NCBI GenBank assembly: GCA_947576945.1
Contig: CANPTH010000002.1
Span: forward strand, 1-64,000
From: an uncultured Lachnospiraceae bacterium
Lineage (GTDB): Bacteria > Bacillota > Clostridia > Lachnospirales > Lachnospiraceae
Direction: 5' to 3'
DNA: 64,000 nucleotides
The position numbers were made by a program, and so were the translations under genes. Shown piece by piece: positions 1,643 to 42,107 of this stretch. Position 1 is the first letter of the stretch. Every line of letters starts with the position of its first letter. Under the pieces are notes generated by a model that was not told where the DNA came from, ran no database searches, and saw only the letters and a program-made list of their open reading frames with translations.

Positions 1643-1776
1643 ACTCTTTCCTCCTGTATCGTTATGATTTTCTATGGGGCTGCCCTTTTTACCGTCGTTG
1701 ATAGTGTCATCATAGCTCTTATACACCCTTTTTACAAGGACTCGTGTCCTTCTCCAATTCGATTTTCGTTGTTCTG

Positions 1777-3291
1777 CTATTTCGGGCGCTTTATGCCGCC
1801 TTTCCTCTTTAATCCGAACCCATGCAGATATATTTCGGGAATATTGATTCTTTCATCCGCCGTTCTCATTACGATGCCTAAAGTGACCAGTACTTCGAGA
1901 ATTTCAACATTTGTCTTGCCCGGCAGCTTATCACGCTCTGCTGCCGGCCAGTTTTCCGGCTCCAGATAACGCAGGAATTCATCCGATCCCATCAACATCG
2001 TTTTGCCATACAAACGGCCGATCAGATTTTGCAGCCACTGATATTCTTCCTGTGTCAGTTCCTGCACTCTGTCTGCCGAAACTTTTGCCACCGCCCCCTG
2101 TAATCTGGTCGGCAAAAGTATCCTGTTTTCTTCCAACAGCGATACATCACCCTTATGGTTCAGCATCTCTTCTGCCGCAAAAGCAAAGCATTTCAGGAAA
2201 GCCCGCGGCGCTGTCTCCCCGTTTGCGTCCTGAATGTGGTTGGGTACCCAGGTATAACTGATGCCTCTCTTCGCATTCTTCCCCATATACTGCCCGATCA
2301 TTTTATTGATAAGCAGACGAAATGCGTCTTCTGAATTGCCCGGCAGATACCCCAACGCTCCATCGGCTTCTGTCTGCAGCAATCCCGGTACTTCTTTCAA
2401 ATATACCTCCATTTCCTCAACCCCTGCATTGGCCATCCTTTTGACAAGCAGACGATAGAGCGAATGAGTATCCCAATTCAATTCCAGTCGGTACGCCCCC
2501 ATCTTTGAGGCATCCACAAACTGAAGCGCCTTCGCATTATACAGATCACTGCGCAGAAAAATTTTTGCTTTCACATGTGTATAGCGGCTGTTATGGCGAT
2601 ACCAGAAATCCAGTAGACTTCTGATAAACAGAAAAAGATTCTCATAGTTACCGCAGATACGATCCAGTTCATCGTATACCAGACAAATGTGTATATCCCT
2701 TTTTTCAAGGACAGTATCCGCCTGGTCGAGAAAACTCTCCCATTTTTCCTTTCTGACATCCAGGACATTCCACCATTTTGACACCTCGTTACTGTCCTGC
2801 TCCAGAATCTTTCTGGTTTCAGCACCAAAATAATGATCCGCCAGTTCACGAAACTCCCAGTCTTCTCTAAACTTTCTTAAGATCACCGAACAGACCAATC
2901 CGCCCCAGAAGGAGGTCAAATTATCCGGTTTTTCAATCTTCAACAGATCATCACAGGAATTGGCAGTCGGAAACGCCTTCGCCCCCAAACCGGTTGCGAT
3001 ATATCCGGTCAAAAACTCCTGTTCCCGCAGGCCGGTATATCGTTTTCTGTCTTTCTCACTGATCACATGGCGCAGTCCTCCACAGGATGTCAAAATGCGA
3101 AACAATTCCGTTTTTCCTGAACCACGTCCTCCCGTGATCAGGAAATTTTTAGGATCTGCCAATTTAGCGTAACTGCGCAGAGGCAGGAAATTTTGTAAAA
3201 GATTTTCTTCATCTTCTCCCGAACCGTTTTCCGGAACACAATTTGAAATTCCTTCCAGTATTCTATACTTTGCTTCCATCTCCATGCTCAT
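1777..3291 (-). CDS. P-loop ATPase, third gene of a putative conflict cassette
   Basis: A 504-residue soluble protein of unknown function. Walker A GGRGSGKT lies at residues 54-61 and a Walker B-like VYDELD at 205-210. An IFLRSDLY segment near 244-251 could carry a sensor arginine. This resembles the KAP/STAND-type or Sll1717-type P-loop NTPases, but I cannot place it in a family. The C-terminal half is helical, without a recognised enzyme domain. Its ATG overlaps the TGA of the preceding ATPase gene by four bases, which implies coupled translation; a second ATG two codons later is equally well spaced from the GGAGAGGA site. The base composition is more AT-rich than the flanking metabolic genes. 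Confidence 0.75.
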
Positions 3292-4619
3292 TCCTCTCCA
3301 AACCAGCCACAGATCCTCTCTGTAATTTTCCTGTAGCTTTCTCCGGTCAGTATGTTTTCATAAGCCTTCACACGCTGTTTCCTCTCCGGACTCTCATCTG
3401 AGTACAATTCTACACCCCGCAGCAGCTCGTCATTAAACGGGATAAGTTCAGGATAATGAATCTCACCTTCCGCCTCGATACCCGGCACTTTACTGCTTTC
3501 ATCATAGTAGTTTTCCATACAAACCGTATACGCTTTTCGCATAAAACGCTGCCTGGCTGCAACAAAATCCTCTGCCGTCGGTTTTGGACACATAGTATCC
3601 ACTATCATTACAGGGAAATCTTCTTCATGTCCTTCTGCTATTGTACGCAGAACCTGTGTGATCCCGTCCCAGGATTGTCTGCTGTCATTGCCAAACAGTA
3701 CGACGCCGTGAGGAATCTGCGTAACCGCTATACCACCCATATCATGGAATCCTGCCCGTGCATCCACCAGAATATAATCTATATCATAACTGTTTCTTGC
3801 GGCGATCAGCAATCCTTTCAAAGCCTCTCGCAAATAACCGTCTCTGTTATCCTGATAATCAATACGTGCCAGCTTTTGCAGATAGTTTTCATCTACCTTT
3901 CCGGCAGACATAAGGAATAATTTCCCTGCATCTTCATCCAGAAGGGCGGGTTCCACCACATCCAACACAAAATCTGTCAACTTGATCCCCGGCTCTACTT
4001 CCCGCTCTATAAGATAATCCAAAACCCCTCGTGTCACAGCTTCCTCGTCAAAAAATAACGTTGCCAGTCCGGGGGCTTCAATATCTGTATCTACCATCAA
4101 TACATTCTTACCCTGCTTTACCAGACACAAAGCTACGCCGGCTAATGCCGTTGTCCTTCCCATGCCGCCTTTGAATGAGTAAAACGTGATCACTTTGGCG
4201 CCATTTTCCGCCTCTTCATAGGGCCACACTGATTCTGAATCCTGCCATCTGCAAACCCAGGCCTTCTTTGCAATAGCCCGCTCAGACAAATAGAATTTAA
4301 TACCGTCTTCTTCTTTCCAGAAAAGCCGTTCACTCTCTATGAGATCAACTATGATCTTTTCCCGCTCTTCCAGTCTTTTGCGGTTATGCGCTGATTTTTT
4401 CCAATAAACTCTCCCGCTGAAATATGCTCCCATATCACCGCTTAAAACAGACGAAAGAGTCCCTTTGTCAGAATCATCTACAGGCTCTGTGTTATCCATC
4501 AGCAAAGACACTTTGCCGTATACATCTCTGATCAATGTAGCTTCTTTCACAAGCGTATTTTTATTCCATTTACGTATACAGGCCACTGCCGTATCCAGAG
4601 TATCATTAAATGTTATCAT
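3288..4619 (-). CDS. MinD/ParA-like ATPase with KGGMGRT variant motif
   Basis: A 443-residue protein with an N-terminal helical region of about 140 residues followed by a deviant-Walker (SIMIBI) ATPase domain. The P-loop FKGGMGRT at residues 149-156 keeps the signature first lysine but has arginine where ParA and MinD have the second lysine. VDTDIEAPG at 176-184 is the A' motif and ILVDARAG at 283-290 the Walker B. I recall a recognised group of KGGVGR-variant ATPases of unknown role. It starts 12 bases after the small upstream gene and overlaps the next ATPase gene by four bases. A role in chromosome or plasmid partition is unlikely, because no ParB-like gene is adjacent. A defence or signalling role is inference from context. 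Confidence 0.8.
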   Translation of the reverse strand: MITFNDTLDTAVACIRKWNKNTLVKEATLIRDVYGKVSLLMDNTEPVDDSDKGTLSSVLSGDMGAYFSGRVYWKKSAHNRKRLEEREKIIVDLIESERLFWKEEDGIKFYLSERAIAKKAWVCRWQDSESVWPYEEAENGAKVITFYSFKGGMGRTTALAGVALCLVKQGKNVLMVDTDIEAPGLATLFFDEEAVTRGVLDYLIEREVEPGIKLTDFVLDVVEPALLDEDAGKLFLMSAGKVDENYLQKLARIDYQDNRDGYLREALKGLLIAARNSYDIDYILVDARAGFHDMGGIAVTQIPHGVVLFGNDSRQSWDGITQVLRTIAEGHEEDFPVMIVDTMCPKPTAEDFVAARQRFMRKAYTVCMENYYDESSKVPGIEAEGEIHYPELIPFNDELLRGVELYSDESPERKQRVKAYENILTGESYRKITERICGWFGEE

Positions 4620-4631
4620 CTCACAGTCTCC

Positions 4632-5060
4632 TTACACATATCCATCCAAACGCATAAACGCCAGCTCTCTGATCAGACACCCTGCCGCCTGCCGACAATC
4701 CTCAGCATCTTTCTTTACGAATTTATCATCTCCGAAATATCTTCTTTCCGGATGGTCTCGAAACAGAACTTCGGGCAGCGCCACTTGAGATAATCTCAGC
4801 GCACATGCCGGATCGATCATCATTGTCAGCCCCACATCACCTGTCAGCATCATAACGATATCCTGAAAAAGCGCTTCTCCAAAATGACTGTATTTTCTGA
4901 TATTACTGGACGAACATATTCTCTCCATAATTCTTTTCAAAGCACACTCTGCTGCAAATCCCTGCATACAGACTGCATTATCATATTCTTCATTTTCTTC
5001 CAGAATGCTTCCATCAATCCAGTGCCTTATTGCTGACTCATAGAAATCTTCATATGCCAT
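4632..5060 (-). CDS. small HEPN-like protein, first gene of the cassette
   Basis: A 142-residue, mostly helical, acidic protein. The pattern of an early tyrosine/histidine-rich helix, the AVCMQGFAAECALKRIM stretch at residues 29-45 and a final long helix resembles HEPN domains, which are often RNases in toxin-antitoxin and defence loci. The canonical RxxxxH catalytic motif is not clearly present; RKYSH near residues 55-59 is the nearest match. It may therefore be a non-catalytic HEPN relative. The start has a GGAG site 10-13 bases upstream. It leads the tight ATPase cassette, 12 bases before the KGGMGRT gene. HEPN assignment is tentative. Confidence 0.6.
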   Translation of the reverse strand: MAYEDFYESAIRHWIDGSILEENEEYDNAVCMQGFAAECALKRIMERICSSSNIRKYSHFGEALFQDIVMMLTGDVGLTMMIDPACALRLSQVALPEVLFRDHPERRYFGDDKFVKKDAEDCRQAAGCLIRELAFMRLDGYV

Positions 5061-5146
5061 TTATCCTCTGCTCCTTCGTCCGGTCATTTCCATCCGGATT
5101 TATCTCAATCTCTGCGCTGCCCCTCTATGGATTCTGCCTGCCCCGC

Positions 5147-6487
5147 CTACACGTCAAATTCCATAACAAAAGGATCCGCCGCGCTGCATTCCCGCCACTG
5201 CGGCAGCCCGTCCCCGTTGGGGTCTCCTTTTTTCATAAAATTGGTCCAGTAATCCAGCATCCGTTCACTCAGCTGCACATCCGCCTCCGTAAGCGGCCGC
5301 CAGCAGCGCTTTACAGTGCCGAACACATACCACAATTCCGCAGAATGGAAGGCGCCTTCTTCGTCGCCCGGCATCTGTCTGGAAAAATAGTAGACATGGG
5401 AAGGCTCGGCCCAAAGCTCCTCCATCTTATGGCTGAACGCCATGCAGCCCTCATACAGGGTTCCCTTCTCACCTGCCGCCAGCTGCTCCTTCGTCACCAT
5501 AATATCATTCTTCGTGCTGCCCAGCAGATAAGGGATATGTTTCAGCTTTTTCTCCTCAATGGTTGCATTGTAGCCCTGCTTCAGCACATGACCGTCGATA
5601 TTGGGGACGAAAAACAGCCCCTTGCCGGAAGTAAAAGCCTCCGCCATCATCTGTCCAAGCGGTTTCTCCAGTTCCTGCGTGGACATGGCCCGAAGCCCGG
5701 CCAGATCTTTGGCCCCGGTCAGCTCCACAAATCTCTCTCCGTACTCTTCCGCTTCCCGCAAAGGCATATCCCGGTGCACTCCCACGCGATAGCTGCCGCC
5801 GCTCTGCAGGATTGCTTTGGCGATCTTATTGCCGGTCAGCTCCGAAGACAGCAGCGTCTGCACGCTCATCGCACCGGCAGACTGTCCGAAGATCGTGATA
5901 TTGTCAGGATCACCGCCGAAAGCCGCGATATGATCAGAAACCCACTGCAATGCGGCGATCTGATCCAGTATACCGTAATTCCCGGATATGCCCCGTCCGC
6001 TCTCCTCATCCAGCCAGGGATGCGCAAGAAAGCCATACACATTCAGGCGGTAATTGATGGTCACAAGAATCACACCCCGTTTCGCATACGCCGCGCCGTC
6101 GAACTCCTGCTCACTCCCGTACCCGCTCATAAATGCTCCGCCGTGAATCCAGAATGCCACCGGCAGTCCTGCCTTCGCATCTTCCCCCACCGCATCTTCC
6201 GGCGTCCAGATATTCAAATACAGGCAGTCCTCACTGATCTCCACATCATACGCCGGATCCGCATAGAATTCCCTGCCGTAGAATCCCACGTTCTGCTCCC
6301 CCTGCACCGCCTTGCCGGAAAACCGCACCGCTTCATAGATGCCTTCCCAGTTCTCCGTCTCCTGGGGCTCCCGCCAGCGAAGTTCCCCCACCGGCGGTTT
6401 TGCGTAAGGTATGCCCTTGAATACAAGGCAGCCATTTTCCGCGCATCCTCTGATCTTTCCTTTTTTGGTTGTGACAACTGTGCTCAT
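5147..6487 (-). CDS. type B carboxylesterase (para-nitrobenzyl esterase-like)
   Basis: A cytosolic alpha/beta hydrolase of 446 residues, slightly short for the COesterase family. Visible hallmarks are FKGIPYAKPPVGELRW near residue 23, SEDCLYLNIWTP at 85-96, the oxyanion HGGAF at 115-119, the nucleophile elbow FGQSAGA with Ser203, and a C-terminal FHSAELWYVFG supplying the histidine. It hydrolyses carboxylic esters; the natural substrate cannot be read from sequence. The start follows an AAGGGG site. A perfect TATAAT on the same strand at 6568-6573 lies about 80 bases upstream, inside the terminator-like hairpin of the preceding ABC operon, and may be its -10 box. Confidence 0.88.
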   Translation of the reverse strand: MSTVVTTKKGKIRGCAENGCLVFKGIPYAKPPVGELRWREPQETENWEGIYEAVRFSGKAVQGEQNVGFYGREFYADPAYDVEISEDCLYLNIWTPEDAVGEDAKAGLPVAFWIHGGAFMSGYGSEQEFDGAAYAKRGVILVTINYRLNVYGFLAHPWLDEESGRGISGNYGILDQIAALQWVSDHIAAFGGDPDNITIFGQSAGAMSVQTLLSSELTGNKIAKAILQSGGSYRVGVHRDMPLREAEEYGERFVELTGAKDLAGLRAMSTQELEKPLGQMMAEAFTSGKGLFFVPNIDGHVLKQGYNATIEEKKLKHIPYLLGSTKNDIMVTKEQLAAGEKGTLYEGCMAFSHKMEELWAEPSHVYYFSRQMPGDEEGAFHSAELWYVFGTVKRCWRPLTEADVQLSERMLDYWTNFMKKGDPNGDGLPQWRECSAADPFVMEFDV

Positions 6488-7762: not shown

Positions 7763-8758
7763 TCAGCCTTCCTTTCTCATCTCCCTGCGGAACACGCACT
7801 GTGCTCCCGCGAATAATGCTGCGATCGCAGCCAGACAACCCAGGTAATAGACAGGGCTGTGCAGGGACGTCTCAAAGTATGCGTTTTTCAGTCCCATATA
7901 GATATGAAAAAAGGGATGAAAGTAAACCCAGTCCGGCTTTAACGCCGTATTCGCAGACAAGAACACCGGACTCGCCACAAAAATGGCAACCACCAGATAG
8001 GCCAGTGTGAACTGTCGGAAGTCTTTTAAAAGCAGGGCGCAGATCAGTCCTGTCAGAGCCATGATCAAAGACAGGAGCGCCGTCTGCAGCAGCACTCCGG
8101 GCAGCAGGGATGCGGTATCCGAAACGCCCACATTCAGCACGGTGAGCAGTATTGCAAAGACCAGATCAGACAACAGGAAGATTGCCAGCTTGGACAGGAG
8201 AAACAGATTCTTCCGCATGGGCAGAACCGCATGGACCCGGATAATGCCCATACTTTTTTCCTGAAACAGCACAGAGGCAATCCCCAGAAATCCGACAGCG
8301 GCTATTTCAAAAAACAACAGCTCGCAGGTGATCTCTTTCCGCGCCTTTTGTTCCGGCGTATTGGAGCCGATCACCTCGGCGCTGTGATGCCCTGACGGCC
8401 GCAGGAGAGAAAGCGCGTAGTCGGCCCGGTGCCGGTCCGTACTTTCTTCCATCTCATAAAACGCAAGCTGCGGCTCTCCGGAGCTGGCGTCAATGCCAAC
8501 GCCGCTTGTATCGTCGCGTAAAACCGCAGCAAGCGCTTCTTCTGACGACACCTGCTGAACCAGGGCCGAAACCGTTGTCTGGGTTTTTGCCGGGTCATAC
8601 AGATATACGTTGTACAGCCGGGCATCCATAAACCTGACATAACCAAAATTCACGTACAGGGTATAAGCCGCCAGAAAGCCAAACGACATGAGGAAGAATT
8701 TTCCGGACAGCATCATCCGGCAGTCTTTTTTGAATAAGGAGCAAAAGGTTTTCCACAT
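7763..8758 (-). CDS. ABC transporter permease, first subunit
   Basis: A 331-residue membrane protein with one N-terminal segment (about residues 20-40), an external domain of some 120 residues, and about five further membrane segments from residue 150 to the end, the ABC-2-type layout. Its start overlaps the ATPase stop by one base (TGATG), so the two are translationally coupled. It probably heterodimerises with the permease encoded 130 bases downstream. Export of a peptide or toxic compound is inferred from the operon and from the two-component system encoded divergently. Confidence 0.8.
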   Translation of the reverse strand: MWKTFCSLFKKDCRMMLSGKFFLMSFGFLAAYTLYVNFGYVRFMDARLYNVYLYDPAKTQTTVSALVQQVSSEEALAAVLRDDTSGVGIDASSGEPQLAFYEMEESTDRHRADYALSLLRPSGHHSAEVIGSNTPEQKARKEITCELLFFEIAAVGFLGIASVLFQEKSMGIIRVHAVLPMRKNLFLLSKLAIFLLSDLVFAILLTVLNVGVSDTASLLPGVLLQTALLSLIMALTGLICALLLKDFRQFTLAYLVVAIFVASPVFLSANTALKPDWVYFHPFFHIYMGLKNAYFETSLHSPVYYLGCLAAIAALFAGAQCVFRREMRKEG

Positions 8759-9606
8759 CAGGACAGCCCCCTTCCCGTATATTGGATGAACATATCTTCC
8801 AGCGTCGGCTCCTGGGAGTGGATGCTCACAATCCCGTCATGTGCAAAAGGGATGCCGGCCGCCAGTTCCGGAGCCTCCATCGTCTTTTCTTCCCGCCTCC
8901 CCTGATACAGATAGCCGATCACCACACGGTGATCGCTGTTGCGCTCTTTCAGGTTTTTGGGCGTGTCCAGCGCCACGATATTGCCGTTGGATATAAAAGC
9001 CACCCGGTCACACAACAGATCGGCATCCAGCATATTGTGGGTTGTCAAAAATACCGTCGTGCCCTTTTTGCGTTCCTGCTCAATGATCCGGCGAAACAGA
9101 ACCGCACCGGAGGGGTCAAGCCCGCTGGTGGGTTCGTCCAGAAACAGCAGCCTGGGATTGCTGATCAGCGCCCGTGCCATGCTTACCCGCTGCCGCATCC
9201 CCTTTGAGTAGGACGAAACCGGCTTCTTCATAAAGTCCGCCTTAAATTCCAGTTCCTCCAGAATTTCCTCAATACCGCGTACCTGCTCTTTCGGATAGAA
9301 CGAGGAAAAATATCTGAGATTGTCAACGGCGCTTAAATTGGCATACAGATAGGGAAACTCAAACAGAACGCCGATCTTCCGGAAAAATTCCTGCGTATGT
9401 GCCGCGGAAATATCCTGCCCGAACAGCGATACTCTGCCGCCGTGTCCTTTCAAAATTCCGGTCAGGATTTTCTGGGTCGTCGACTTTCCGGAGCCATTAG
9501 GCCCCAGAAAACCAAAGATTTCCCCGTCTTCCACCGTGAAGTCCAGACCGTGCAGCGCCTGTTTGTCCCTGCCGTAGGAGAAAGTCAGCTCCTTTACTTC
9601 AATCAT
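8758..9606 (-). CDS. ABC transporter ATP-binding protein
   Basis: The 282-residue nucleotide-binding subunit. Walker A GPNGSGKST is near residues 35-43, the signature SYSKGMRQR near 137, Walker B LLFLDEPTSGLDP near 155-167 and the switch histidine in TTHNM. The C-terminal extension of about 70 residues is typical of drug and peptide exporter ATPases (CcmA/BcrA type). It overlaps the preceding 51-residue gene by four bases and the following permease by one base, so this is one tightly coupled operon on the minus strand. Confidence 0.9.
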   Translation of the reverse strand: MIEVKELTFSYGRDKQALHGLDFTVEDGEIFGFLGPNGSGKSTTQKILTGILKGHGGRVSLFGQDISAAHTQEFFRKIGVLFEFPYLYANLSAVDNLRYFSSFYPKEQVRGIEEILEELEFKADFMKKPVSSYSKGMRQRVSMARALISNPRLLFLDEPTSGLDPSGAVLFRRIIEQERKKGTTVFLTTHNMLDADLLCDRVAFISNGNIVALDTPKNLKERNSDHRVVIGYLYQGRREEKTMEAPELAAGIPFAHDGIVSIHSQEPTLEDMFIQYTGRGLS

Positions 9607-9758
9607 GCATCATCACCCCATTTCCCGCGCTGCTCCTGTTTCTTTTCCTGCTCCCGCCTGCTCCACCACTTCACAAATTTAATCTTGCACGGGACAGCAA
9701 CTGCCAGCACCGCCACGATCACCAGCCACCAGTACCATTCCAGTCCTGAAAATGTCAT
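9603..9758 (-). CDS. 51-residue single-pass membrane protein, operon leader
   Basis: A short gene with an excellent AGGAGG site eight bases before its ATG and a four-base overlap with the ATPase gene, which argues strongly that it is real. It encodes an N-terminal WYWWLVIVAVLAVAVP membrane helix (about residues 8-23) followed by a basic, then mixed-charge tail (KWWSRREQEKKQEQ). The likely topology is a periplasmic-side N-terminus and cytoplasmic tail. I do not recognise the family. It may be an accessory or assembly subunit of the transporter encoded immediately after it. Confidence 0.7.
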   Translation of the reverse strand: MTFSGLEWYWWLVIVAVLAVAVPCKIKFVKWWSRREQEKKQEQRGKWGDDA

Positions 9759-9813
9759 AACGATTCCCTCCTTTGTCTGCGGGTTCTCTCTGCCCGCCTG
9801 TTGAGGTAAGTTT

Positions 9814-9863
9814 ATGATACGGGGGTGAAGTCGACGTGAGGCCGGTGTGAAATTGGTGTGAAA
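9814..9863 (-). promoter_or_regulatory. four 11-bp direct repeats abutting a -10 box
   Basis: On the minus strand TTTCACACCAA, TTTCACACCGG, CCTCACGTCGA and CTTCACCCCCG follow one another without gaps (9863 down to 9820), directly followed by TATCAT (9814-9819), a -10-like hexamer about 55 bases before the 51-residue gene. Head-to-tail 11-bp repeats replacing the -35 region are the usual target layout of OmpR/PhoB-type response regulators. The divergently encoded regulator at 10080 is the obvious candidate binder. Confidence 0.65.
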
Positions 9864-10079
9864 TTTCCCATACTGTATGTTGCAGAATAAACGAAAAGGA
9901 AAAAATCCAATGCCGCTGTCTCGTCTGAAAAAGTGGAAGAAATCATGCATATATGGTAAAATGAGAAGCACATATACAGGATTTTACTGAACCGGAAGCA
10001 AAATAGCAGCAACAAATACACGGTATCCATTTCCACACAGGCAAAAGGCCCGCGGGATGGATACAGACGGAGGTTTGCC

Positions 10080-10745
10080 ATGCAGAAGATCATGATCATT
10101 GAAGACGATCCGCTGATCCGGGAGGAACTTTCTCTCCTTCTGGAAAACGAAGGGTACGGGGTCGTCTCCGTCACCGATTTTACCGATATACCGGAACAGA
10201 TCCGGGACTGTGCCCCTGACCTGCTCCTTCTCGACCTGGGGCTGCCGGAGCAGGACGGACTCACGTTATGTGCCGGAATCCGAAAAAGTTCCGCCCTTCC
10301 CATCATCATCGTCACCAGCCGGGATTCCTCCGCGGACGAATTCCACGGCTTAAGCCTGGGCTGCGACGACTATATCACCAAGCCCTATGACGTGCCCATT
10401 CTTCTGGCCCGCATCAAAGCCGTGCTCCGCCGCAGCGCCGGCGTACCGGACGCCGACGTGCTTGCGGTAAACGGTCTGCAGGTCAGCCTGACCAGAGGCA
10501 CGGTCTCCTTAAACGGCCGCAGCGAAGAACTTACCCGCAACGAATTGAAGATTCTGGCCCATTTGATGACACATGCCGGAGAGATCGTCTCCCGCGCCGA
10601 CCTGATTGACGTGTTGTGGGAAAACCAGATCTATATTGACGACAACACCTTAAGTGTGAACATCACCAGGCTGCGCACCAAACTAAAGGATCTGGGAATG
10701 CCGGACTGCATCCGCACAAGGCGGGGAATGGGGTATCAGCTATGA
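10080..10745 (+). CDS. OmpR/PhoB-family response regulator
   Basis: A 221-residue DNA-binding regulator. The receiver domain occupies residues 1-115, with acidic pocket EDD at 8-10, phospho-acceptor Asp52 in LLLLDLGLP and a conserved lysine in ITKPYD. A winged-helix Trans_reg_C domain follows, containing the typical ELTRNELKIL and SVNITRLRTKL segments. An AGACGGAGG-type site precedes the start. The kinase gene overlaps its end by four bases. With the downstream BceAB-like transporter it forms an antimicrobial-peptide sensing and resistance module, and it probably also binds the 11-bp repeats at 9820-9863 of the divergent ABC operon. Confidence 0.92.
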   Translation: MQKIMIIEDDPLIREELSLLLENEGYGVVSVTDFTDIPEQIRDCAPDLLLLDLGLPEQDGLTLCAGIRKSSALPIIIVTSRDSSADEFHGLSLGCDDYITKPYDVPILLARIKAVLRRSAGVPDADVLAVNGLQVSLTRGTVSLNGRSEELTRNELKILAHLMTHAGEIVSRADLIDVLWENQIYIDDNTLSVNITRLRTKLKDLGMPDCIRTRRGMGYQL

Positions 10746-11779
10746 CCATACGCGAATTTCTATCCGACAGGCTGGGGAAGATCACCGGGCAGCTTTGTTG
10801 CACCGTCTCCGCTGCGCTCTTTCTGCTGGCGACCGGCACCTCTTCCGGCGTGATCGTCCTCCTGCTGCTCTTTTTGCTTCTTATTTCTATTACCACACAG
10901 GCCGCCGAATATCTGAAATGCCGCCGCCGGTTATCAGAATTAGATGTGCTGATGCAGGGGCTGGATCAGAAATATCTGTTCAGCGAGTGTGCACCGCCGC
11001 CCCGTACTGTCTATGAACAGAAACTTTTTGACCTGATGCGCTGTTCCGGCAGGGCCATGATCGGCGCCGTCTCGGATGCCCAGGCTTCCATGCAGGAGTA
11101 TCGGGAGTATATCGAAAGCTGGGTGCATGAGATCAAGACGCCGCTCACTGCCGCCAAACTTACCTGCCGGCATCTGGAGCCTGACAGCCGCCGTAAATTC
11201 TCTGCGGAACTGGCACAGATCGAGGCGCATGTGGAACGCGCCCTCTATTATGCGAGGGTCAAAAGCCCGGAGCAGGACTGTATCATCCGCCAGACCGACC
11301 TGGCCGACATCGTCTCACAGGCTGTGGGGAACCACCGGACGCTGCTCATCCAGAGTCAGATGAAGATCGAGACCGGTGATCTGGACTTTACGGTCTACAC
11401 CGACAGGAAATGGGCAGTATTCATGCTCGGACAGTTATTGCAGAATGCATCCCGCTATCGAAATAACGATTCCCCTTCCATCCTCCTGACCGCCACGCGT
11501 TGTGGCCGGCAGGTACGACTTACTGTCTCCGATAACGGCATCGGCATCCCGGCCCATGAGCTGCCCCGTGTATTTGACCGTGGATTTACCGGCAGCAACG
11601 GGCGGACGCGGGGCGGTTCCACCGGTATAGGCCTCTATCTGTGCCGCAAACTGGCGGCTTTGCTGGAAATCGACCTGCAGATCTCTTCCGAAGAACAGAA
11701 AGGCACTGCCGTGACCCTCACTTTTCCGGCCAGGCAGGCCGCAGAAACCTTACAGGATTGTAAGACAAATCCATACTGA
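10742..11779 (+). CDS. BceS-like intramembrane-sensing histidine kinase
   Basis: A 345-residue kinase. Two closely spaced N-terminal membrane helices (about residues 17-33 and 36-52) have almost no external loop, the mark of BceS-type kinases that sense through a partner transporter. The H-box is ESWVHEIKTPLTAAKL with His129. The ATP-binding domain contains the N-box QLLQNASRYR, the G1 box VSDNGIGIP and the G2 GGSTGIGLYL. The regulator gene overlaps its start by four bases. The signal is probably flux through the BceAB-like transporter encoded 170 bases downstream. Confidence 0.9.
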   Translation: MTIREFLSDRLGKITGQLCCTVSAALFLLATGTSSGVIVLLLLFLLLISITTQAAEYLKCRRRLSELDVLMQGLDQKYLFSECAPPPRTVYEQKLFDLMRCSGRAMIGAVSDAQASMQEYREYIESWVHEIKTPLTAAKLTCRHLEPDSRRKFSAELAQIEAHVERALYYARVKSPEQDCIIRQTDLADIVSQAVGNHRTLLIQSQMKIETGDLDFTVYTDRKWAVFMLGQLLQNASRYRNNDSPSILLTATRCGRQVRLTVSDNGIGIPAHELPRVFDRGFTGSNGRTRGGSTGIGLYLCRKLAALLEIDLQISSEEQKGTAVTLTFPARQAAETLQDCKTNPY

Positions 11780-12711: not shown

Positions 12712-14629
12712 ACTCTCCCTGCGCAACGCAAAACGCCAGACCGGCGATTATCTGGTCTACTTCGTCACGGTCACGATAACTGCCGCCCTGCTCTATGCCT
12801 GCAACGGCCTGATCTTCTCACCGGAGATCCTGAAATTGTCCACGCTGATGAAATCACTGCCCGTAACGATCGTTCTCGCCAGCATCGTGGTCGTCTGCAT
12901 CATGGGCTGGCTGGTCCAGTACACCACGGGTTTCATGTTCACGAAGCGCAGCCGGGAATTCGGGACCTATATCCTGATCGGGCTGGAAAACAGACAGGTG
13001 GCGCGGCTTTTCTTCCTGGAAAATCTGATCGTGGGCGCCTTTGCGCTGCTGTTCGGCATCCTGCTTGGCAACCTGGTCTTTCAGGCGCTGCGGGCCATCC
13101 TGCTGGCATTGTTTGGCATCCCCTACACCTTTGCCTTTACCTTTTCTTTCAGAGCCGTAGCGCTGACGCTTTTTTACTTCGTACTGATCTATCTGTCTGC
13201 GCAGCTTAGAAGCCGCAGGCGGATCCGTTCCATGAAAATATACGACCTGATCTATTTCGACCGGCTCAATGAAAATGCCGCCCTTGCGAAGAGCGGCCGG
13301 CGGAAGAAGATCTTCTCCGCCTCCATCGTGTTCGGAGTGGCCGGAACGCTCCTGCTCCTGACAAGGAGCCTGCCCACCGGCATTCTGGGAGCCGCCTGCA
13401 TCATCGTGTTCCTGTACGGCTTCTTCTTAAGCTTCTCCTCCGGCGTCCCGGCCTGGTTTGACCGGCGTCCCGGCCGTAAGTATCAGGGACAGACGCTGCT
13501 CATCTTCCGCACGCTGTCCGCCAAATTAAATACCATGGGAATCGTGATGGCCACAATCGCGCTGCTGTTCACCGCCGTGCTGATCTCACAGGGCACCGGC
13601 CTGATCTTTGGCGCCATCTTCGAGAGCCGGCAGACTGCCGAAACCTGTTTCGATATTTTCATCGGCACGGAGACCCCGGCGCAGGACGGCAGTGACCTGA
13701 TCGCATATATAGAATCTTCCATCCCCGTCACAGCCGCGCATTCGTACAGCATCTATCAGGGAACGGATGCCCGTATCACGGATTATCTGAATGAAAATAC
13801 GGACTATTATCCCTGTTATCCTTATGATACATGGATGAAGTTCAGCGACTACGCCGCCCTGCGCTCCATGCTGGGATACCCTGACGCTGCCCTGGAACCT
13901 GGTGAATATTTGATCCACTGCGTACCCTGGCAAAAGGACGCCGTGACGGCCTGCGCGAAGCCGATCGCCATTGGAGGAGCGACGCTGCAGCCAGGCAGTG
14001 TCCATACGGAGACTCTCAATCAACGGCTCTGGAATGTCAATGGGACAGACTTTATCCTCATCCTGCCGGATGAAGCCGCCCTCTCCCGTCCTGTCAGCCA
14101 CAATCTGTACGCTGCCATGACGAAAGAGCCTGTCAGCGAAGAACAATATGCCACACTGTGCCGGATCCGGGATGACCGTGAGCTCTATAGTCATATTACG
14201 CTCTACACCGCGCCGCAGGTGCAGGCAGAGTATGCAAGTTCGACGGCAATGCTGGTCCTTCCGCTTTATTATCTGGCCCTGGTCCTCATCATGACTGCGG
14301 CTACGATCCTGACCATCCAGCAGCTTTCCGAGACGGACCGGTACAGGCGGCAGTTCCTGCTGCTTAAGAAGCTGGGCATGGACCGACAGGAAATGCACAG
14401 GGCGCTGCGCCTGCAGTTTATGATCTACTACACAATGCCTGCCATTCCGCCTCTGTTTGTCAGCATCCCTTTTCTCCTGAACCTGTGCAATGCCACGGAT
14501 CCGGGCGTCACGGAGGGCTTTTACCGGCCGTTCAACATCATCTGCCTGACGCTGGCGTTGTTTTTCATGATCTATGCCGTCTATATCGTAATGGCCTACC
14601 GCAGCCTGAAGCGAAATGTGCTGCCATAG
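12698..14629 (+). CDS. BceB-type FtsX-like permease
   Basis: A 643-residue membrane protein, the usual length of BceB. I use the GTG at 12698 (MTLSKLSLRNAKRQ), eight bases after GGAGG, rather than the GTG inside the ribosome site at 12689. The N-terminal membrane segment is followed by an FtsX-like four-helix block (about residues 50-215). A pair of helices near 225-260 and another near 285-300 lead into a roughly 200-residue external domain (about 310-510), and three final helices complete the ten expected. The external domain is the peptide-sensing part in this family. The substrate is not predictable. Confidence 0.9.
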   Translation: MTLSKLSLRNAKRQTGDYLVYFVTVTITAALLYACNGLIFSPEILKLSTLMKSLPVTIVLASIVVVCIMGWLVQYTTGFMFTKRSREFGTYILIGLENRQVARLFFLENLIVGAFALLFGILLGNLVFQALRAILLALFGIPYTFAFTFSFRAVALTLFYFVLIYLSAQLRSRRRIRSMKIYDLIYFDRLNENAALAKSGRRKKIFSASIVFGVAGTLLLLTRSLPTGILGAACIIVFLYGFFLSFSSGVPAWFDRRPGRKYQGQTLLIFRTLSAKLNTMGIVMATIALLFTAVLISQGTGLIFGAIFESRQTAETCFDIFIGTETPAQDGSDLIAYIESSIPVTAAHSYSIYQGTDARITDYLNENTDYYPCYPYDTWMKFSDYAALRSMLGYPDAALEPGEYLIHCVPWQKDAVTACAKPIAIGGATLQPGSVHTETLNQRLWNVNGTDFILILPDEAALSRPVSHNLYAAMTKEPVSEEQYATLCRIRDDRELYSHITLYTAPQVQAEYASSTAMLVLPLYYLALVLIMTAATILTIQQLSETDRYRRQFLLLKKLGMDRQEMHRALRLQFMIYYTMPAIPPLFVSIPFLLNLCNATDPGVTEGFYRPFNIICLTLALFFMIYAVYIVMAYRSLKRNVLP

Positions 14630-14634
14630 GGATT

Positions 14635-14655
14635 GCCGCCCCTTTAGCGGGCGGC
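14635..14655. terminator. GC-rich hairpin between convergent genes
   Basis: GCCGCCC and GGGCGGC pair around a seven-base loop between the BceB-like stop (14629) and the end of the DUF3237-like gene (14656). It may end transcription from both sides, although T-runs are short. Confidence 0.6.
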
Positions 14656-15081
14656 TTATTCCAATACATCGTAGATCCGTATCTCGATCCCATCCTCCAC
14701 GGACTGGACTTCCGAACGGAATCTCGCCTGACACAGAAAAGCGCCCAGCACAGGACTGTCCGTTATAAATCTCGGGCAGGCATGAAAGAAAGCATTCTCC
14801 CTGTCTGCCTTCGAGAAGTAACCGTTGTTTTCTACAAAGAGATGACAGGCATTGCCTTCCCGGTCTTTTCCCTGAAACATATATTTTGCGCACATGTTCC
14901 TGCTGCCGGCAGGATTTTCCACCTGTACATCCACCGCGCCCGGCAGGATTTCGCCGGTGAAAAGTTCTGATTCCACTCTGCCCGTAAAAGGGATCATGGT
15001 CACTGCCCCATAAGGCCCTTCCATATTTGAAATCTGTGAATCCTCCACAAATATCTGAAATGTCATGATCGGTTCGTTCAT
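14656..15081 (-). CDS. DUF3237-like protein
   Basis: A 141-residue soluble protein. The segments TGRVESELFTGEILPGAVD and CAKYMFQGKDREGNACHLFVENNG resemble the DUF3237 beta-barrel family, whose biochemical role is unknown to me. I choose the ATG at 15081 because an AAAGGGG site lies about ten bases upstream; an in-frame ATG 24 bases earlier is possible. It converges with the BceB-like gene and seems to be a single-gene unit. Confidence 0.65.
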   Translation of the reverse strand: MNEPIMTFQIFVEDSQISNMEGPYGAVTMIPFTGRVESELFTGEILPGAVDVQVENPAGSRNMCAKYMFQGKDREGNACHLFVENNGYFSKADRENAFFHACPRFITDSPVLGAFLCQARFRSEVQSVEDGIEIRIYDVLE

Positions 15082-15137
15082 CTGTTTTGTTCCCCTTTCT
15101 CCCACATAGGGCGATGCATGCTTTACAGCTTCTGTTT

Positions 15138-16670
15138 TCAGTCTGATTCTATCTTGTATTCATATGGATAATAATTTTGTAATTCGTCTATATCTATTTC
15201 TTTCCCCGCATACGTCCTGAACCAGTTTTCATAATTTGGGTTATTCCAGACTGTGCCATCTTCAAAAACAACTTGCTCTAAACAAAGCAGCGAATATGCA
15301 GCCTGCTTCGCTTCGCCATTCCCAGCTTTCGGAAAGTCCTCCATGATTTCACCATCATATAATGACCAGCCGCCACGGTATTCCTCGGTTTGATCAGGTA
15401 AAATGTTCTCCTTTGTCCGAACAATATTTTCAAAGCTGCTTTCCGTACTGCTGTCAAGGAAATTCCAATATAGCTTTAGCGGTGAACCATTTTTGCTATA
15501 AGCCAGCATACAATATTGAGTTTCTACAATTGTACTGCCGGTATTGTTTGTAAGTATATCGTGAATATACGGTGCGCCATCTTCGTAATGGAGAATATCT
15601 GCGCTTTCATGGATAATGGTCACAGCGCCTTTTTTATCTGCGGCAATATCACTTGTGTTTGTTTTCGAGTCACTGACAGCAAGCGTATCATTCGTTTTAC
15701 TATCAGTTGAAGCTGTTGCAGACGTGACAAACAAAATGACAGTAACCAGCACGATAAGGCAGGCGGATAAAAAAGTAATGGCCGTTGTTCGTTTTGTGTT
15801 CATAATTGCAGTAATCCTTTCCTCGACAGCATTTTTGCTGAAATGATTGCAAAGCGGCGGCAACCCGCTTTTCTTTGCTTCCATACTGATAAGCATCAGC
15901 GAATAGGCAGATTTTGATTTATCGCCAAATTGCCGTATAACACTTTCATCACATGCCAGCTCAATATCACGATTGAAAAGAATGTACATTCCCCAAACAA
16001 AAGGATTGAACCAATGAATACAAAGGGCATATGTAGCCATCAGCTTTGCAAGCGTATCAAAACGATAAATATGCACATATTCATGCGCAAAAATATATCG
16101 TAACTGATTTATATTTTTCCAATCCGTTTGCTTCGGCATTAAAATAACAGGATGTAAAATGCCATACGTTAGCGGTGTGGAAATTCTATCCGACTGTTTA
16201 ATTGAAATTCGCCGTTTTAGAGGACGCTCTTTTATCCATTGTTCTACATAGGCATTATTGACTGGTAAAGCTGTCCGAAACTCAATCCGGCAGCGTAAAT
16301 AAGATACCGTGAAAAATACAGCAAGAAGTATCATTCCAATACACCAGACAACAAACCAAACAGAAACAAACGGGATATTTGTCACTGGCTGTTCTATGCC
16401 TTGTATCACTACAAAATATTCCCGTGATATGGCAGAAGCAACATTGTTTGTTTCTGCTTCAAAAAATGCGGGTGTAGATATACTGTGGTTAAGAAGCGTA
16501 TATATACTAAACGCAGACGGAATAGTAAACGGAATAGTCAGCCTCAATAACACCATTTCCCACAAAACAAGAAATGTTTTTTTAGGCAGACTATTTATTG
16601 CTGTTGCCCGAATCACCATAACCGCAAGAATAAAAACAGCCCCGGAAAAGCTCACTTCCAGTAAAGTCAT
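15138..16670 (-). CDS. BlaR1/MecR1-type M56 antirepressor protease
   Basis: A 510-residue membrane metalloprotease sensor. Membrane helices lie near residues 7-20, 30-48, 100-120 and 300-320. Between the last two is the zinc protease core with HEYVH(IYRFD), the HExxH motif, preceded by STPLTYGILHPVILMP, typical of M56. The C-terminal 190 residues would be outside the cell; they are not a penicillin-binding domain, so the ligand is probably not a beta-lactam. Start 16670 has an AGGTGAT site and lies ten bases after the BlaI-like gene. The region is clearly more AT-rich than its neighbours, which suggests horizontal origin. Confidence 0.85.
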   Translation of the reverse strand: MTLLEVSFSGAVFILAVMVIRATAINSLPKKTFLVLWEMVLLRLTIPFTIPSAFSIYTLLNHSISTPAFFEAETNNVASAISREYFVVIQGIEQPVTNIPFVSVWFVVWCIGMILLAVFFTVSYLRCRIEFRTALPVNNAYVEQWIKERPLKRRISIKQSDRISTPLTYGILHPVILMPKQTDWKNINQLRYIFAHEYVHIYRFDTLAKLMATYALCIHWFNPFVWGMYILFNRDIELACDESVIRQFGDKSKSAYSLMLISMEAKKSGLPPLCNHFSKNAVEERITAIMNTKRTTAITFLSACLIVLVTVILFVTSATASTDSKTNDTLAVSDSKTNTSDIAADKKGAVTIIHESADILHYEDGAPYIHDILTNNTGSTIVETQYCMLAYSKNGSPLKLYWNFLDSSTESSFENIVRTKENILPDQTEEYRGGWSLYDGEIMEDFPKAGNGEAKQAAYSLLCLEQVVFEDGTVWNNPNYENWFRTYAGKEIDIDELQNYYPYEYKIESD

Positions 16671-16680
16671 GCTTATCACC

Positions 16681-17049
16681 TCATTCCAGATCTGCAACAA
16701 TTTGTTTCAGCTTTTCAATTTCTTCAGCAGAAAGTTTTTTCCTGCTCAACAGTGTAGCAAACAACCTGTCCACAGAACCATCAAAAATTCTGTTAATCAG
16801 TTCATTCGTTTCGGCTTCCTGTACTTCTTCTTTGGGAATAAGCGCGCGACACATAAAATTTGGTTCAGAACGTTCAATCGCCCCCTTTTTTATACAACGC
16901 TTAATAAGCGTGTAGGTAGTGTTTTTATTCCAACCCAACTCTTTTGTAAGAACATCTGCAACATGCTTTGCCGGTACATCACCCTCTTTCCAAAGAACAT
17001 CCATAACCTTTAATTCGGAATCAAAAAGTTTTACAGTTTCTTTATCCAC
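16681..17049 (-). CDS. BlaI/MecI-family repressor
   Basis: A 122-residue winged-helix repressor with the penicillinase-repressor pattern: LFDSELKVMDVLWKEGDVPA, a helix-turn-helix including GWNKNTTYTLIKRC, and a dimerisation tail cleaved by BlaR1-type proteases. I start at the GTG at 17049, seven to eight bases after AAAGGAGC, which gives the normal family length; the frame is open upstream through the operator region. It precedes the M56 protease gene by ten bases and the pair is probably self-regulated through the two dyads at 17072-17113. Confidence 0.88.
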   Translation of the reverse strand: MDKETVKLFDSELKVMDVLWKEGDVPAKHVADVLTKELGWNKNTTYTLIKRCIKKGAIERSEPNFMCRALIPKEEVQEAETNELINRIFDGSVDRLFATLLSRKKLSAEEIEKLKQIVADLE

Positions 17050-17179: not shown

Positions 17180-18760
17180 TTAACTTTGCTTTACTGTTCT
17201 TTCTATCACACAACTATGCGGTTTATCCTTATTTCCCCTCTCATAATTGATCCCCACGAGCAATATATTACCCGCATATCCTGCAAGCGCCTGCGTGTAC
17301 TGCCTGTCCTTGATCTGCTGTATGGCCGTCCTGGCATCCTTATCGTATTTCAGTTCTACCACCAGCGCCGGCTTATCCGTATGCGGCAGCGGCAGAAAAA
17401 CAACGTCTGCAAAACCCTTTCCTGCCGGCAGCTCCCGTACCAGTTTGTAATCCTTCCTCGCACTATAGTAAGCAAGCCCTATGGCACTGCCAAGTGCATT
17501 TTCGTCATTATAGGTCAATATGGACGCCACTTCCATATGCGCCCGGTCAAGTCCTCTTGCCACGCTTTCCTCATCGCCGTTTAAAGTAGCTTCCAGAAGC
17601 TTCTCCGATGCTTTCAGCACACGCATCACTTCCGGCCATCCGCTCACGCTCATGGCATTCTCGAATTCTCCGATGATCTCTTTATTAGGAATAAACGCTT
17701 CCTTCGTCTCCGCATCATAGCCAAGATAACCGATATGGATCAGCAGCGTCAGCACATCATCCTTCGTTCTGAAGCTGTGCATATCATTTTGAAAACTGAG
17801 TGTATTCACCTTCACCCGTTCGCCGCCCAGCATCTGCACAATATCTGCTTTCAGCCCGTCATAATCCATATCGATATATAACTTTAATGCCTCGTAAGTT
17901 TCTGTAGATGTCCAGTAGTTTGAAAAAACACGGCTCTTCATCGCCGCCACAACAGAGCGCGGATTATAAATATGCCGGAACTGCCGAAGCCTGTAACCGT
18001 CATACCAGTCGCTGACTTTCGCAACATCCATGTCATACCGAACGCAGAGCGCTTTTACCTCCTCCTCCGTGAAGCCTGTATATTCCTCAAAGATAAACTG
18101 ATCTGTCATCGAGTATTCCCAGAACATATTCAGCGCGGAATGCTGCCCGTATTTCTTTATGGGAAGAATTCCTGTCACATACGCCAGCGCAACATAAGGC
18201 TGATCCTTTAAAAGATCCCGCAGAAAATCCAGGTACTTCTTCTGCAGCTCTTCGGATTCCTGCCTTTCCCGCATCACACAATCCCATTCATCGATCAGAA
18301 AGATAAACTGCTTTTCCGTTTTTGCATAAATTCTCTCAAGCGCTTCTGCCAGACCCGTAATCCGTTCCGAAAACAAATCTCCATAACTCTCCCGCAGTTC
18401 TTCAAGCACAGCCCGTTCCAGATATTCCGTTACATCCTCTTCCTTTGCTCTGATCAGAAACTGCTGCATGTTCATAAAGATAACATCATACTGGTTCAGA
18501 TGTTCCCTGAAAGTCCCTTCTTTTTCTATCTGAAAGCCCTTGAATAAATCCCCGGAATCACAGCCACGGCTATAATAAGCCGCAAGCATCTTAAGCGCCA
18601 TGGATTTACCGAATCGTCTCGGCCTGCTGACACATATATACTGCTGCTCCGTATTCAAATATTGGTTCGTCTTTGCGATCACCCCCGTCTTATCTACATA
18701 GATCTCGGATCGAATCGACTGCCAGAAACCTCTGTTGCCCGGATTCAGATAGATTCCCAT
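17180..18760 (-). CDS. AAA-like ATPase/PD-(D/E)XK protein (DUF1703 type), paralogue A
   Basis: A 526-residue protein of a family common in gut anaerobes. The N-terminal AAA-like domain has a Walker A-like RPRRFGKS at 46-53 and Walker B FLIDEWD at 154-160, and is followed by the NMFWEYSM segment near 211. The C-terminal PD-(D/E)XK nuclease fold has GFADVVF (Asp452) and VVELKYD (Glu469, Lys471). The cellular role is not established; nuclease activity is inferred from the motif. It is closely related to the protein at 40530-42107: the first 73 residues differ at only two positions (V27L, D71E), whereas residues 74-150 diverge strongly. It appears to be a single-gene unit. Confidence 0.85.
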   Translation of the reverse strand: MGIYLNPGNRGFWQSIRSEIYVDKTGVIAKTNQYLNTEQQYICVSRPRRFGKSMALKMLAAYYSRGCDSGDLFKGFQIEKEGTFREHLNQYDVIFMNMQQFLIRAKEEDVTEYLERAVLEELRESYGDLFSERITGLAEALERIYAKTEKQFIFLIDEWDCVMRERQESEELQKKYLDFLRDLLKDQPYVALAYVTGILPIKKYGQHSALNMFWEYSMTDQFIFEEYTGFTEEEVKALCVRYDMDVAKVSDWYDGYRLRQFRHIYNPRSVVAAMKSRVFSNYWTSTETYEALKLYIDMDYDGLKADIVQMLGGERVKVNTLSFQNDMHSFRTKDDVLTLLIHIGYLGYDAETKEAFIPNKEIIGEFENAMSVSGWPEVMRVLKASEKLLEATLNGDEESVARGLDRAHMEVASILTYNDENALGSAIGLAYYSARKDYKLVRELPAGKGFADVVFLPLPHTDKPALVVELKYDKDARTAIQQIKDRQYTQALAGYAGNILLVGINYERGNKDKPHSCVIERTVKQS

Positions 18761-40529: not shown

Positions 40530-42107
40530 CTACTGTTTTTCAATTCTTTCTATCACACAGCTATGGGGTTTATCCTTGTCCTCACTGTTATAGTTGATCC
40601 CCACGAGCAGGATTTCTCCGCAGTACCCGTCAAACACCTGCATGTACTGCCGGTCTTTGATCTGCCCGATCGCAGCATCAGCCGATTTATCGTATTTCAG
40701 TTCCACCACCAGAGCCGGCCTGTCCGTATGTGGCAGTGGCAGGAAAACAACATCTGCAAAGCCCTTCCCGGCAGGCATTTCCCGAATCAGCTTATAGTCT
40801 TTCCTCGCACTGTAGTAGGCAAGCCCGATTGCGCAGCCAAGTGAATTTTCATCATTGTAAGTCAGGATAGACGCCACTTCCGAATGCGCCCGGTCAAGGC
40901 CCCTGGCCACGCTTTCTTCGTCACCGTTCAAAGTATCCTCCACCAGTTTGTCCGATGCTTTCAGGACACGCATCACCTCCGGCCAGCCGCTCACGCTCAT
41001 GGCATTCTCGAATTCTCCCCTGATCTCCTTATTTGGAATAAACGCCTCCTTCATCTCGGCGTCATAGCCAAGATAGCCGATATGGATCAGCAATGTGAGG
41101 ACATCATCCTTCGTCCTGAAATTGCGCATATCATTCTGAAAGCTGAGCGTATTGATCCTTACCCGTTCCCCGCCGAGCATCTGCACAATATCCGCCTTTA
41201 ATCCGTCAAAATCCATATCCATATACAGTTTCAACGCTTCATAGGTCTCCGTAGCCGTCCAGTAATTTGAGAAAACGCTGCTCTTCATTGCCGCCACGAC
41301 GGATCTTGGATTATAGATATGCCGAAACCGGCGGAATCTGTACCCATCGTACCAGTCGCTGACTTTTGCAAAGTCCATCTCATAACGCCCGCACAGTTCC
41401 TTCACTTCCTCTTCCGTAAAGCCGGTATATTCCTCAAAGTCAAACTGGTCTGTCATGGAATATTCCCAGAACATGTTCAACGCCGAATGCTGCCCGTATT
41501 TCTTTACCGGCAGGATTCCCGTCATATACGCCAGCGCGACATAAGGCTGATCCTTTAACAGGTTCCGCATGAAATCAAGATATTGCTTCTGCAGATCCTC
41601 GGACTCCTGTCTCTCCCGCATTACACAGTCCCACTCGTCGATCAGGAAGATAAACTGACGGTCCGTTTCTACAAAAATATCCCGCAGCGCGGCGGCAAGC
41701 CCCCTGCCCTCCCTCTCCAAAATATCCGCATATTCCTTCCGCAGTTCCCTGAGAACCTCCTGCTCCAGATATTCCGTTACATTCCCAAGATCAGCCTCAA
41801 TCAAAAACTGCTGCATGTTCAGACAGATCACATCATACTGATTCAAATATTCCTTAAAGGTCTTATCCTGCGCTATCTTATAACCTGCAAATAATTCCCC
41901 GGAATCGCAACCGCGGCTGTAATAAGCCGCAAGCATCTTAAGCGCCATGGACTTTCCGAAGCGTCTCGGCCTGCTGACACAGATATATTGCTGTTCCGTA
42001 TTCAAATATTGGTTCGTCTTCGCGATCAGCCCCGTCTTATCCACATAGATTTCGGAACGGATCGACTGCCAGAAACCCCTGTTGCCCGGATTCAGATAGA
42101 TTCCCAT
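40530..42107 (-). CDS. AAA-like ATPase/PD-(D/E)XK protein (DUF1703 type), paralogue B
   Basis: A 525-residue close relative of the protein at 17180-18760, with the same RPRRFGKS Walker A-like motif (46-53), FLIDEWD Walker B near 154, and nuclease motif GFADVVF...VVELKYD near 450-472. Identity is very high except in residues about 74-150, between Walker A and Walker B. Its upstream and downstream flanks do not resemble those of paralogue A, so any duplication covered little more than the gene. The ATG is preceded by AGGTTGG. The function is unknown. Confidence 0.85.
   Translation of the reverse strand: MGIYLNPGNRGFWQSIRSEIYVDKTGLIAKTNQYLNTEQQYICVSRPRRFGKSMALKMLAAYYSRGCDSGELFAGYKIAQDKTFKEYLNQYDVICLNMQQFLIEADLGNVTEYLEQEVLRELRKEYADILEREGRGLAAALRDIFVETDRQFIFLIDEWDCVMRERQESEDLQKQYLDFMRNLLKDQPYVALAYMTGILPVKKYGQHSALNMFWEYSMTDQFDFEEYTGFTEEEVKELCGRYEMDFAKVSDWYDGYRFRRFRHIYNPRSVVAAMKSSVFSNYWTATETYEALKLYMDMDFDGLKADIVQMLGGERVRINTLSFQNDMRNFRTKDDVLTLLIHIGYLGYDAEMKEAFIPNKEIRGEFENAMSVSGWPEVMRVLKASDKLVEDTLNGDEESVARGLDRAHSEVASILTYNDENSLGCAIGLAYYSARKDYKLIREMPAGKGFADVVFLPLPHTDRPALVVELKYDKSADAAIGQIKDRQYMQVFDGYCGEILLVGINYNSEDKDKPHSCVIERIEKQ

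Follow-up and report, generated by a model that had tools for sequence, protein, structure and literature searches.

Several described systems resemble the locus reported here. The HEPN family MAE_18760 together with a ParA/Soj ATPase has been proposed as a toxin-antitoxin pair (Anantharaman et al. 2013, PMC3710099). According to the same survey, an Ex3[KR] motif occurs in many HEPN families, and several are without Rx4-6H. In two proteins it covers, AbiV and AF0298, the arginine is kept, the histidine of the motif is lost, and another conserved histidine nearer the N-terminus makes a likely alternative site. The entry title of structure 9bj6 describes AbiV as an RNase in a two-component antiphage system. 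Stand-alone HEPN genes were reported as backup effectors of bacteriophage exclusion (BREX) systems in a 2026 survey (PMC12839542), and ParA, SIMIBI and MinD do not occur in it as whole words. Here we describe a cassette of three genes, A, B and C, in a 64,000-nt stretch (positions 1 to 64,000, called the window) of contig CANPTH010000002.1 from an uncultured Lachnospiraceae bacterium (assembly GCA_947576945.1). It encodes a HEPN-fold protein and two P-loop ATPases. The system is already catalogued as the defence candidate PDC-M28 in PADLOC-DB 2.0.0, which was the catalogue used. PADLOC candidates of this kind reportedly came out of a study that looked at genes lying within known systems. The cassette, which moves as a single unit among many groups of bacteria, is probably an anti-virus defence.

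Organization of the cassette

All three genes lie on the minus strand. Gene A (4632-5060) encodes a HEPN-fold protein of 142 aa and matches PADLOC model PDC-M28A (E 1.3e-13). Gene B (3288-4619) encodes a MinD/ParA-like (SIMIBI) ATPase of 443 aa with a KGGMGRT motif and matches PDC-M28B (E 3.4e-58), and gene C (1777-3291) encodes a Sll1717-family P-loop ATPase of 504 aa and matches PDC-M28C (E 5.1e-70). A spacer of 12 bases (4620-4631) separates A from B, and B shares the four bases ATGA (3288-3291) with C. The initial annotation, made from the sequence alone, had given this three-gene minus-strand layout with its gap and overlap correctly to the base. The motifs it had named are present as well: FKGGMGRT in B, with arginine for the Walker A lysine and the signature lysine kept, and GGRGSGKT and VYDELD in C. 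It had also called the region AT-richer than its surroundings. This holds for the flanking sequence, as the insert has a G+C content of 45.5%, lower than the 55.6% before and the 53.7% after it, but the difference is less clear against the whole window (50.1%).

Co-occurrence as one unit

For the survey of relatives, 84,980 species genomes were scanned with C and 80 of 86 relatives were taken as loci; six loci from viral contigs made the total 86. The patterns used with C to find these 80 loci (L065-L144) came from a close subgroup of four, so that close relatives of the window are over-represented. A, B and C were present in one order and on one strand in 73 of these 86 loci. The species genomes contributed 68 A-B-C loci, three with B-C, one with A-C and eight with C only, and five of the six viral-contig loci were complete. 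Among the eight C-only loci, six hold part of C, L140 starts at the edge of its record and L114 has a full C. In the plasmid and genome loci examined first, A, B and C were found in order in 18 of 20, some of them truncated. The three proteins have diverged in a matched manner, with Mantel r of 0.956 (A-B), 0.955 (A-C) and 0.981 (B-C) in 66 loci, against a maximum of 0.214 in 999 permutations. Such a gene arrangement exceeds what chance would give.

B and C are fused into one protein in five cassettes, namely on a Nostoc plasmid, in the second cassette of L101 and in three genomes of the same genus as the window. A lies directly upstream of the fusion in four of the five.

Other arrangements were also seen. 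The gene upstream of the B-C fusion in L165 reads, by its sequence, like a chemotaxis receptor. A cyanobacterial contig (L101) carries two nearby cassettes, at 8157-11476 and 13629-16788, one with B and C separate and one with them fused. A Lachnospiraceae isolate has an in-frame A-B fusion open reading frame (L077:8370-10004). This fusion was rejected as a Rosetta stone: its junction lies, as judged by eye, at a short stretch common to A and B, the A tail and the B head are missing, and the fusion may have come about by simple deletion at this shared short repeat. The five B-C fusions were relied on in its place. A joint A-B alignment for folding was set aside because the A rows were badly placed (window A 20% to the fusion).

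Distribution and mobility

The insert extends approximately from 1670 to 5137, with the cassette on the minus strand, between an esterase-like and a uridine phosphorylase-like gene. Its bounds were drawn by comparison with the empty site of G736, a genome of the same genus in which the esterase-phosphorylase (udp) site is without the insert (L156). Similarity to this site is lost roughly 10 bases beyond the stop codon of the esterase and returns roughly 27 bases ahead of the ATG at 1642. The cassette of three genes is present on a second contig of G736 (L168), and on a third (L166) there is a version with B and C fused. Because the same genome has an empty esterase-udp site and the cassette elsewhere, the cassette is a mobile unit.

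A close copy was present in 4 of 77 same-genus genomes, counting the window's own (84-100% identity), and the C model matched at E<=1e-20 in 6 of 398 genomes of a phylum sample, again counting the window's own. Copies were found in Lachnospiraceae, Paenibacillus, Alicyclobacillus, Cyanobacteria, Proteobacteria, Streptomyces, Sorangium and others, and they lie on plasmids, in viral contigs and beside BREX type 2 (BREX-2) genes. The scan of viral contigs with C gave the six loci; an earlier scan with B alone gave none. Phage repressor, integrase, endolysin, terminase and replication families were matched by the proteins around the viral-contig copies (64 proteins pooled from five of the six loci, L062 being left out, with matches not assigned to single loci). 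A tblastn search of phage records with C gave no match. In E. coli no copy was found by DNA similarity to an Enterobacter cassette, a search which distant copies would escape. An order-wide scan with the B model was discarded as a measure of prevalence, as it cross-matched ordinary ParA in 295 of 295 genomes and in 14 of 14 controls.

HEPN-fold protein A

The predicted structure of A is a HEPN helical-bundle fold. The Pfam HEPN family PF05168 was matched at E<=0.1 by 30 of 53 aligned A proteins (best 1.9e-9); the window's own A had no Pfam match. The initial annotation had called this small protein HEPN-like, and both the model and these relatives agree with it. Searches by sequence for relatives of solved structure returned a chance-level match with the single sequence (E 1.4) and none with a profile.

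E38, K42 and R107 are invariant in 53 of 53 aligned A proteins, and the Ex3[KR] motif is thus present. Nearly invariant are H13 and Y108 (52 each), H59 (50) and R12 (48). A histidine at the Rx4-6H spacing follows R107 in 4 of the 53 proteins, R106 in 2 and R12 in 3; the pattern R.{4,6}H at any position occurs in 21, scattered. In sequence, R107, E38xxxK42 and H59 look like the alternative site of AbiV and AF0298.

Arg P-loop ATPase B

B matches the KGGVGR-motif variant NF047398 (AAA_KGGVGR) of NCBIfam with E 1.1e-52 and 179 bits (cut-off 90). In an alignment of 54 B proteins spanning several phyla, the motifs KGGxGR, DxDxExPG and DxRxG are each kept in 54 of 54. The signature lysine of the deviant Walker A motif is likewise kept throughout (K150), and the P-loop lysine is replaced by R155 in every sequence. 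Aligned to a MinD-type chain, KGGVGKT corresponds to KGGVGRT and DSPAG to DARAG; the second fixed arginine of B sits in the Walker B loop (DxRxG). Since it is present in all 54 relatives, the change from lysine to arginine looks selected and not decayed. KGGVGR was found by literature search only in a paper on mushroom lectins.

The B model also matched open frames of 582-685 aa in G125:C37, G186:C2 and G225:C32 (L004-L006), from genomes of the same taxonomic order as the window, at 6e-30 to 8e-24, which is above background. Their sequences perhaps represent other systems with a KGGVGR domain.

P-loop ATPase C

C matches the Sll1717 P-loop ATPase family of NCBIfam, NF047389, with E 3.3e-30 and 105.6 bits (cut-off 75). 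Pfam PF24389 (ORC-CDC6-like) matches residues 28-71 only (E 2.3e-7). The P-loop lysine, both Walker B aspartates and a KxFxRxD motif are kept in 54 of 54 C proteins, and the C-terminal LGI..R.D.R.N.PEIY reads like a winged helix. Matches by sequence to solved structures were short P-loop-type or chance matches, and Sll1717 was named in no paper found by literature search. C was also considered as a relative of BrxC and rejected: with BREX-2 proteins only the P-loop was aligned (probability 0.7%), although with two sequences this is a weak test.

Genomic neighbourhood

Flanks were read up to 10 kb per locus. After seven near-duplicate loci were dropped, 280 neighbour proteins were chosen and 251 were scanned, the other 29, from Streptomyces loci, L138 and L141, being omitted. 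The scans gave the best 25 of 121 and the best 25 of 267 families, from which no overall defence fraction is derivable. The control comprised 45 window genes, that is, the 52 non-cassette open reading frames less seven that looked spurious, with the esterase frame replacing a longer opposite one.

PglX was found in 10 of the 86 loci: nine of the ten Streptomyces loci, the tenth being cut at the edge of its record, and one Acidobacteriota locus. A family of very large proteins follows in all ten Streptomyces loci, and PADLOC calls PglW in three scanned neighbour proteins. Of 15 annotated plasmid loci, those of Sphaerotilus, Streptomyces NBC_01334 and Thiodictyon have the cassette set among pgl genes. 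Near the Calothrix cassette lies a type III restriction gene, near the Nostoc cassette an hsdR, and in the Enterobacter asburiae plasmid locus a TIR gene; the remaining plasmid loci are, by gene name, without such genes. The families listed for the 251 neighbours also include Type II methyltransferase, IIG, Septu-type and other matches. Neighbour matches to mad3, mad8 and AriA were rejected as evidence of defence islands, as the window control gives them too (4, 3 and 1 of 45 genes, respectively), and only pgl and restriction-modification type matches were counted. Among the first 150 neighbours, mainly from Lachnospiraceae and cyanobacterial loci, every listed family apart from mad3 and mad8 has a single member, so that outside Streptomyces defence islands are only weakly supported. 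A recurrent fourth gene was not found: with the 280 neighbours clustered together, no family exceeded five loci once the Streptomyces BREX-2 loci were set aside.

In the window, the contig starts at base 1 and only about 1.7 kb is visible beyond gene C. The flank on that side holds a uridine phosphorylase-like gene (860-1726) and the flank on the side of A a carboxylesterase-like gene (5147-6487). Both were named by sequence reading, without a family match, and both appear to be non-defence genes. None of the pgl/brx, Type II methyltransferase, IIG or Septu-type families was matched among the 45 other window genes, the contig starting 1.8 kb from gene C. A scan for promoters and terminators gave counts no higher than shuffled sequence allows.

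Farther along the window, an overlapping pair on the plus strand (47049-47522 and 47479-47943) matches PDC-M10A (3.4e-94) and PDC-M10B (4.1e-62), and is a second candidate defence or toxin-antitoxin unit. Two copies of a protein family of about 525 aa, 83% identical, lie on the minus strand at 17180-18760 and 40530-42107.

Discussion

On balance, and with some reserve, we favour the reading that the cassette is a mobile three-gene antiphage module in which a sensor complex of B and C holds the HEPN protein A and the outcome is abortive. The HEPN fold of the A model, the fixed three-gene unit, the fixed arginine P-loop, the mobility and the plasmid, viral-contig and BREX-2 contexts were observed; complex formation, sensing, RNase activity and the abortive outcome are our inference. 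C, as an ORC/AAA+-like ATPase, and B, as a MinD/ParA-like nucleotide switch, would form a nucleotide-dependent sensor complex that keeps A inactive. Invasion by a phage or plasmid would alter this complex, and A would be released or activated. It would then attack RNA through an alternative HEPN site made of R107 with H59 and backed by E38/K42, and growth would stop before the phage matures. More tentatively, and more doubtful than otherwise, B may be a non-hydrolysing sensor of nucleotides or nucleotide signals, by its arginine P-loop and the arginine of DxRxG, that together with the ORC-like ATPase gates an alternative-site (H59/R107) HEPN RNase, which would be a new class of immune switch.

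The initial annotation had suggested a sensor-ATPase plus effector module for defence or stress, and the HEPN fold, the fixed unit and the match to the catalogued candidate PDC-M28 support it. Its expectation that the three genes co-occur elsewhere was borne out by the A-B-C unit in 73 of 86 loci and the matched divergence. Its expectation of defence genes as neighbours held in part: BREX-2 genes lie beside the cassette in 10 of 86 loci and 3 of 15 plasmid loci, but these are a minority, and such genes are absent from the window.

Several results weigh against the antiphage module. The window's A has no R.{4,6}H at any position, and the classical Rx4-6H pair is absent; because this motif is missing, A may only bind RNA, and the early caution that sequence proves no effector activity still stands. 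The top Foldseek match of the A model had E 0.022, with nothing at E<=0.001, and its highest VIA Z, 12.8, is slightly below the tool's warning level for helical bundles. B, given its arginine P-loop, may be unable to hydrolyse ATP. L114 has a full C, and no A or B was found there; the B-C fusion at L165:3598-6300 has no HEPN gene upstream. No recognised defence gene adjoins the cassette in the window, and among the families listed for the first batch of neighbours (150, mainly from Lachnospiraceae and cyanobacterial loci) only mad3 and mad8 had more than one member. Finally, the literature search found no paper that names PDC-M28, and no published mechanism there.

Three other explanations must be weighed. 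The cassette may be an addiction (toxin-antitoxin) module, with A as toxin and B, or B and C, as antitoxin, guarding plasmids or islands from loss. A HEPN gene does adjoin that of a ParA-like ATPase on plasmids, as in the pair for which the MAE_18760 proposal was made in print (PMC3710099). That family is, however, listed there with Rx4-6H, which A does not have; an antitoxin needs less than a unit of three parts, one of them a 504-aa ATPase, that is kept in 73 of 86 loci, and embedding in BREX-2 fits defence better. We regard an addiction module as unlikely. More doubtful still is a device for exclusion or surveillance that acts on DNA. In it, A would be a non-catalytic HEPN adaptor that binds RNA or nucleotides, and invading replicons would be the target of the ATPases B and C, possibly in concert with BREX. 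The missing Rx4-6H of A, the ParA-like nature of B, the ORC-CDC6-like match of C and the cassettes in BREX-2 loci of Streptomyces, Sphaerotilus and Thiodictyon would all suit such a device. On the other hand, invariant E38, K42 and R107 in 53 A proteins would be unusual for a plain adaptor, and no nuclease or helicase partner is evident, since no family among the 280 neighbours exceeds five loci outside Streptomyces BREX-2. The similarity of C to two BREX-2 ATPases in the P-loop only also speaks against it, as far as so weak a test with two sequences can.

A housekeeping or partition-type operon, made of a ParA and an accessory ATPase and having no role in defence, would account for the similarity of B to MinD/ParA and for the metabolic look of the window's neighbouring genes. 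It is hard to reconcile with a close copy in just 4 of 77 same-genus genomes, with a C model matching only 6 of 398 phylum genomes, or with insertion at a site that is empty in G736, and we consider it very improbable.

Comparison with known systems

The antiphage module proposed here shares features with several described systems. As in the MAE_18760 dyad, a HEPN gene stands in an operon with that of a ParA/Soj SIMIBI ATPase, here A and B. In the parts of PMC3710099 that deal with that family, it is listed with Rx4-6H and a third ATPase goes unmentioned, whereas A is without the motif. An MAE-named model was not among the 12 Pfam families listed for the 53 A proteins. AF0298 (2hsb) is 12% identical to A, and AbiV 9-11%; the site of A is likened to theirs by sequence alone, and A differs from both in having two ATPases as partners. 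Inactive MinD/ParA-like domains of nucleoside triphosphate (NTP)-dependent conflict systems, as presented in the sections of PMC7159879 that treat them, are like B predicted to be inactive and tied to other NTPases, and they belong to VMAP/FtsH ternary and peptide-processing systems. With BREX type 2 the cassette shares a location in some genomes, where it lies within or next to pgl genes; the 45 other window genes hold no pgl/brx match, and PglX was found in just 10 of 86 loci.

The window cassette matches each of the component models A, B and C of PDC-M28 once, in one operon. No difference from PDC-M28 was found, and the cassette is a member of it. To the catalogue entry are added the fold of A and its likely alternative site, the fixed arginine P-loop of B, the B-C fusions and the evidence of an empty site. 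An uncharacterised entry is thus turned into a testable model with named residues. The odd KGGxGR P-loop, kept without exception in 54 aligned relatives, does not look like that of a dead copy. As a widely shared mobile unit, PDC-M28 also lends itself to the question of how an RNase-type effector could be switched by a ParA-like protein that has lost the catalytic lysine.

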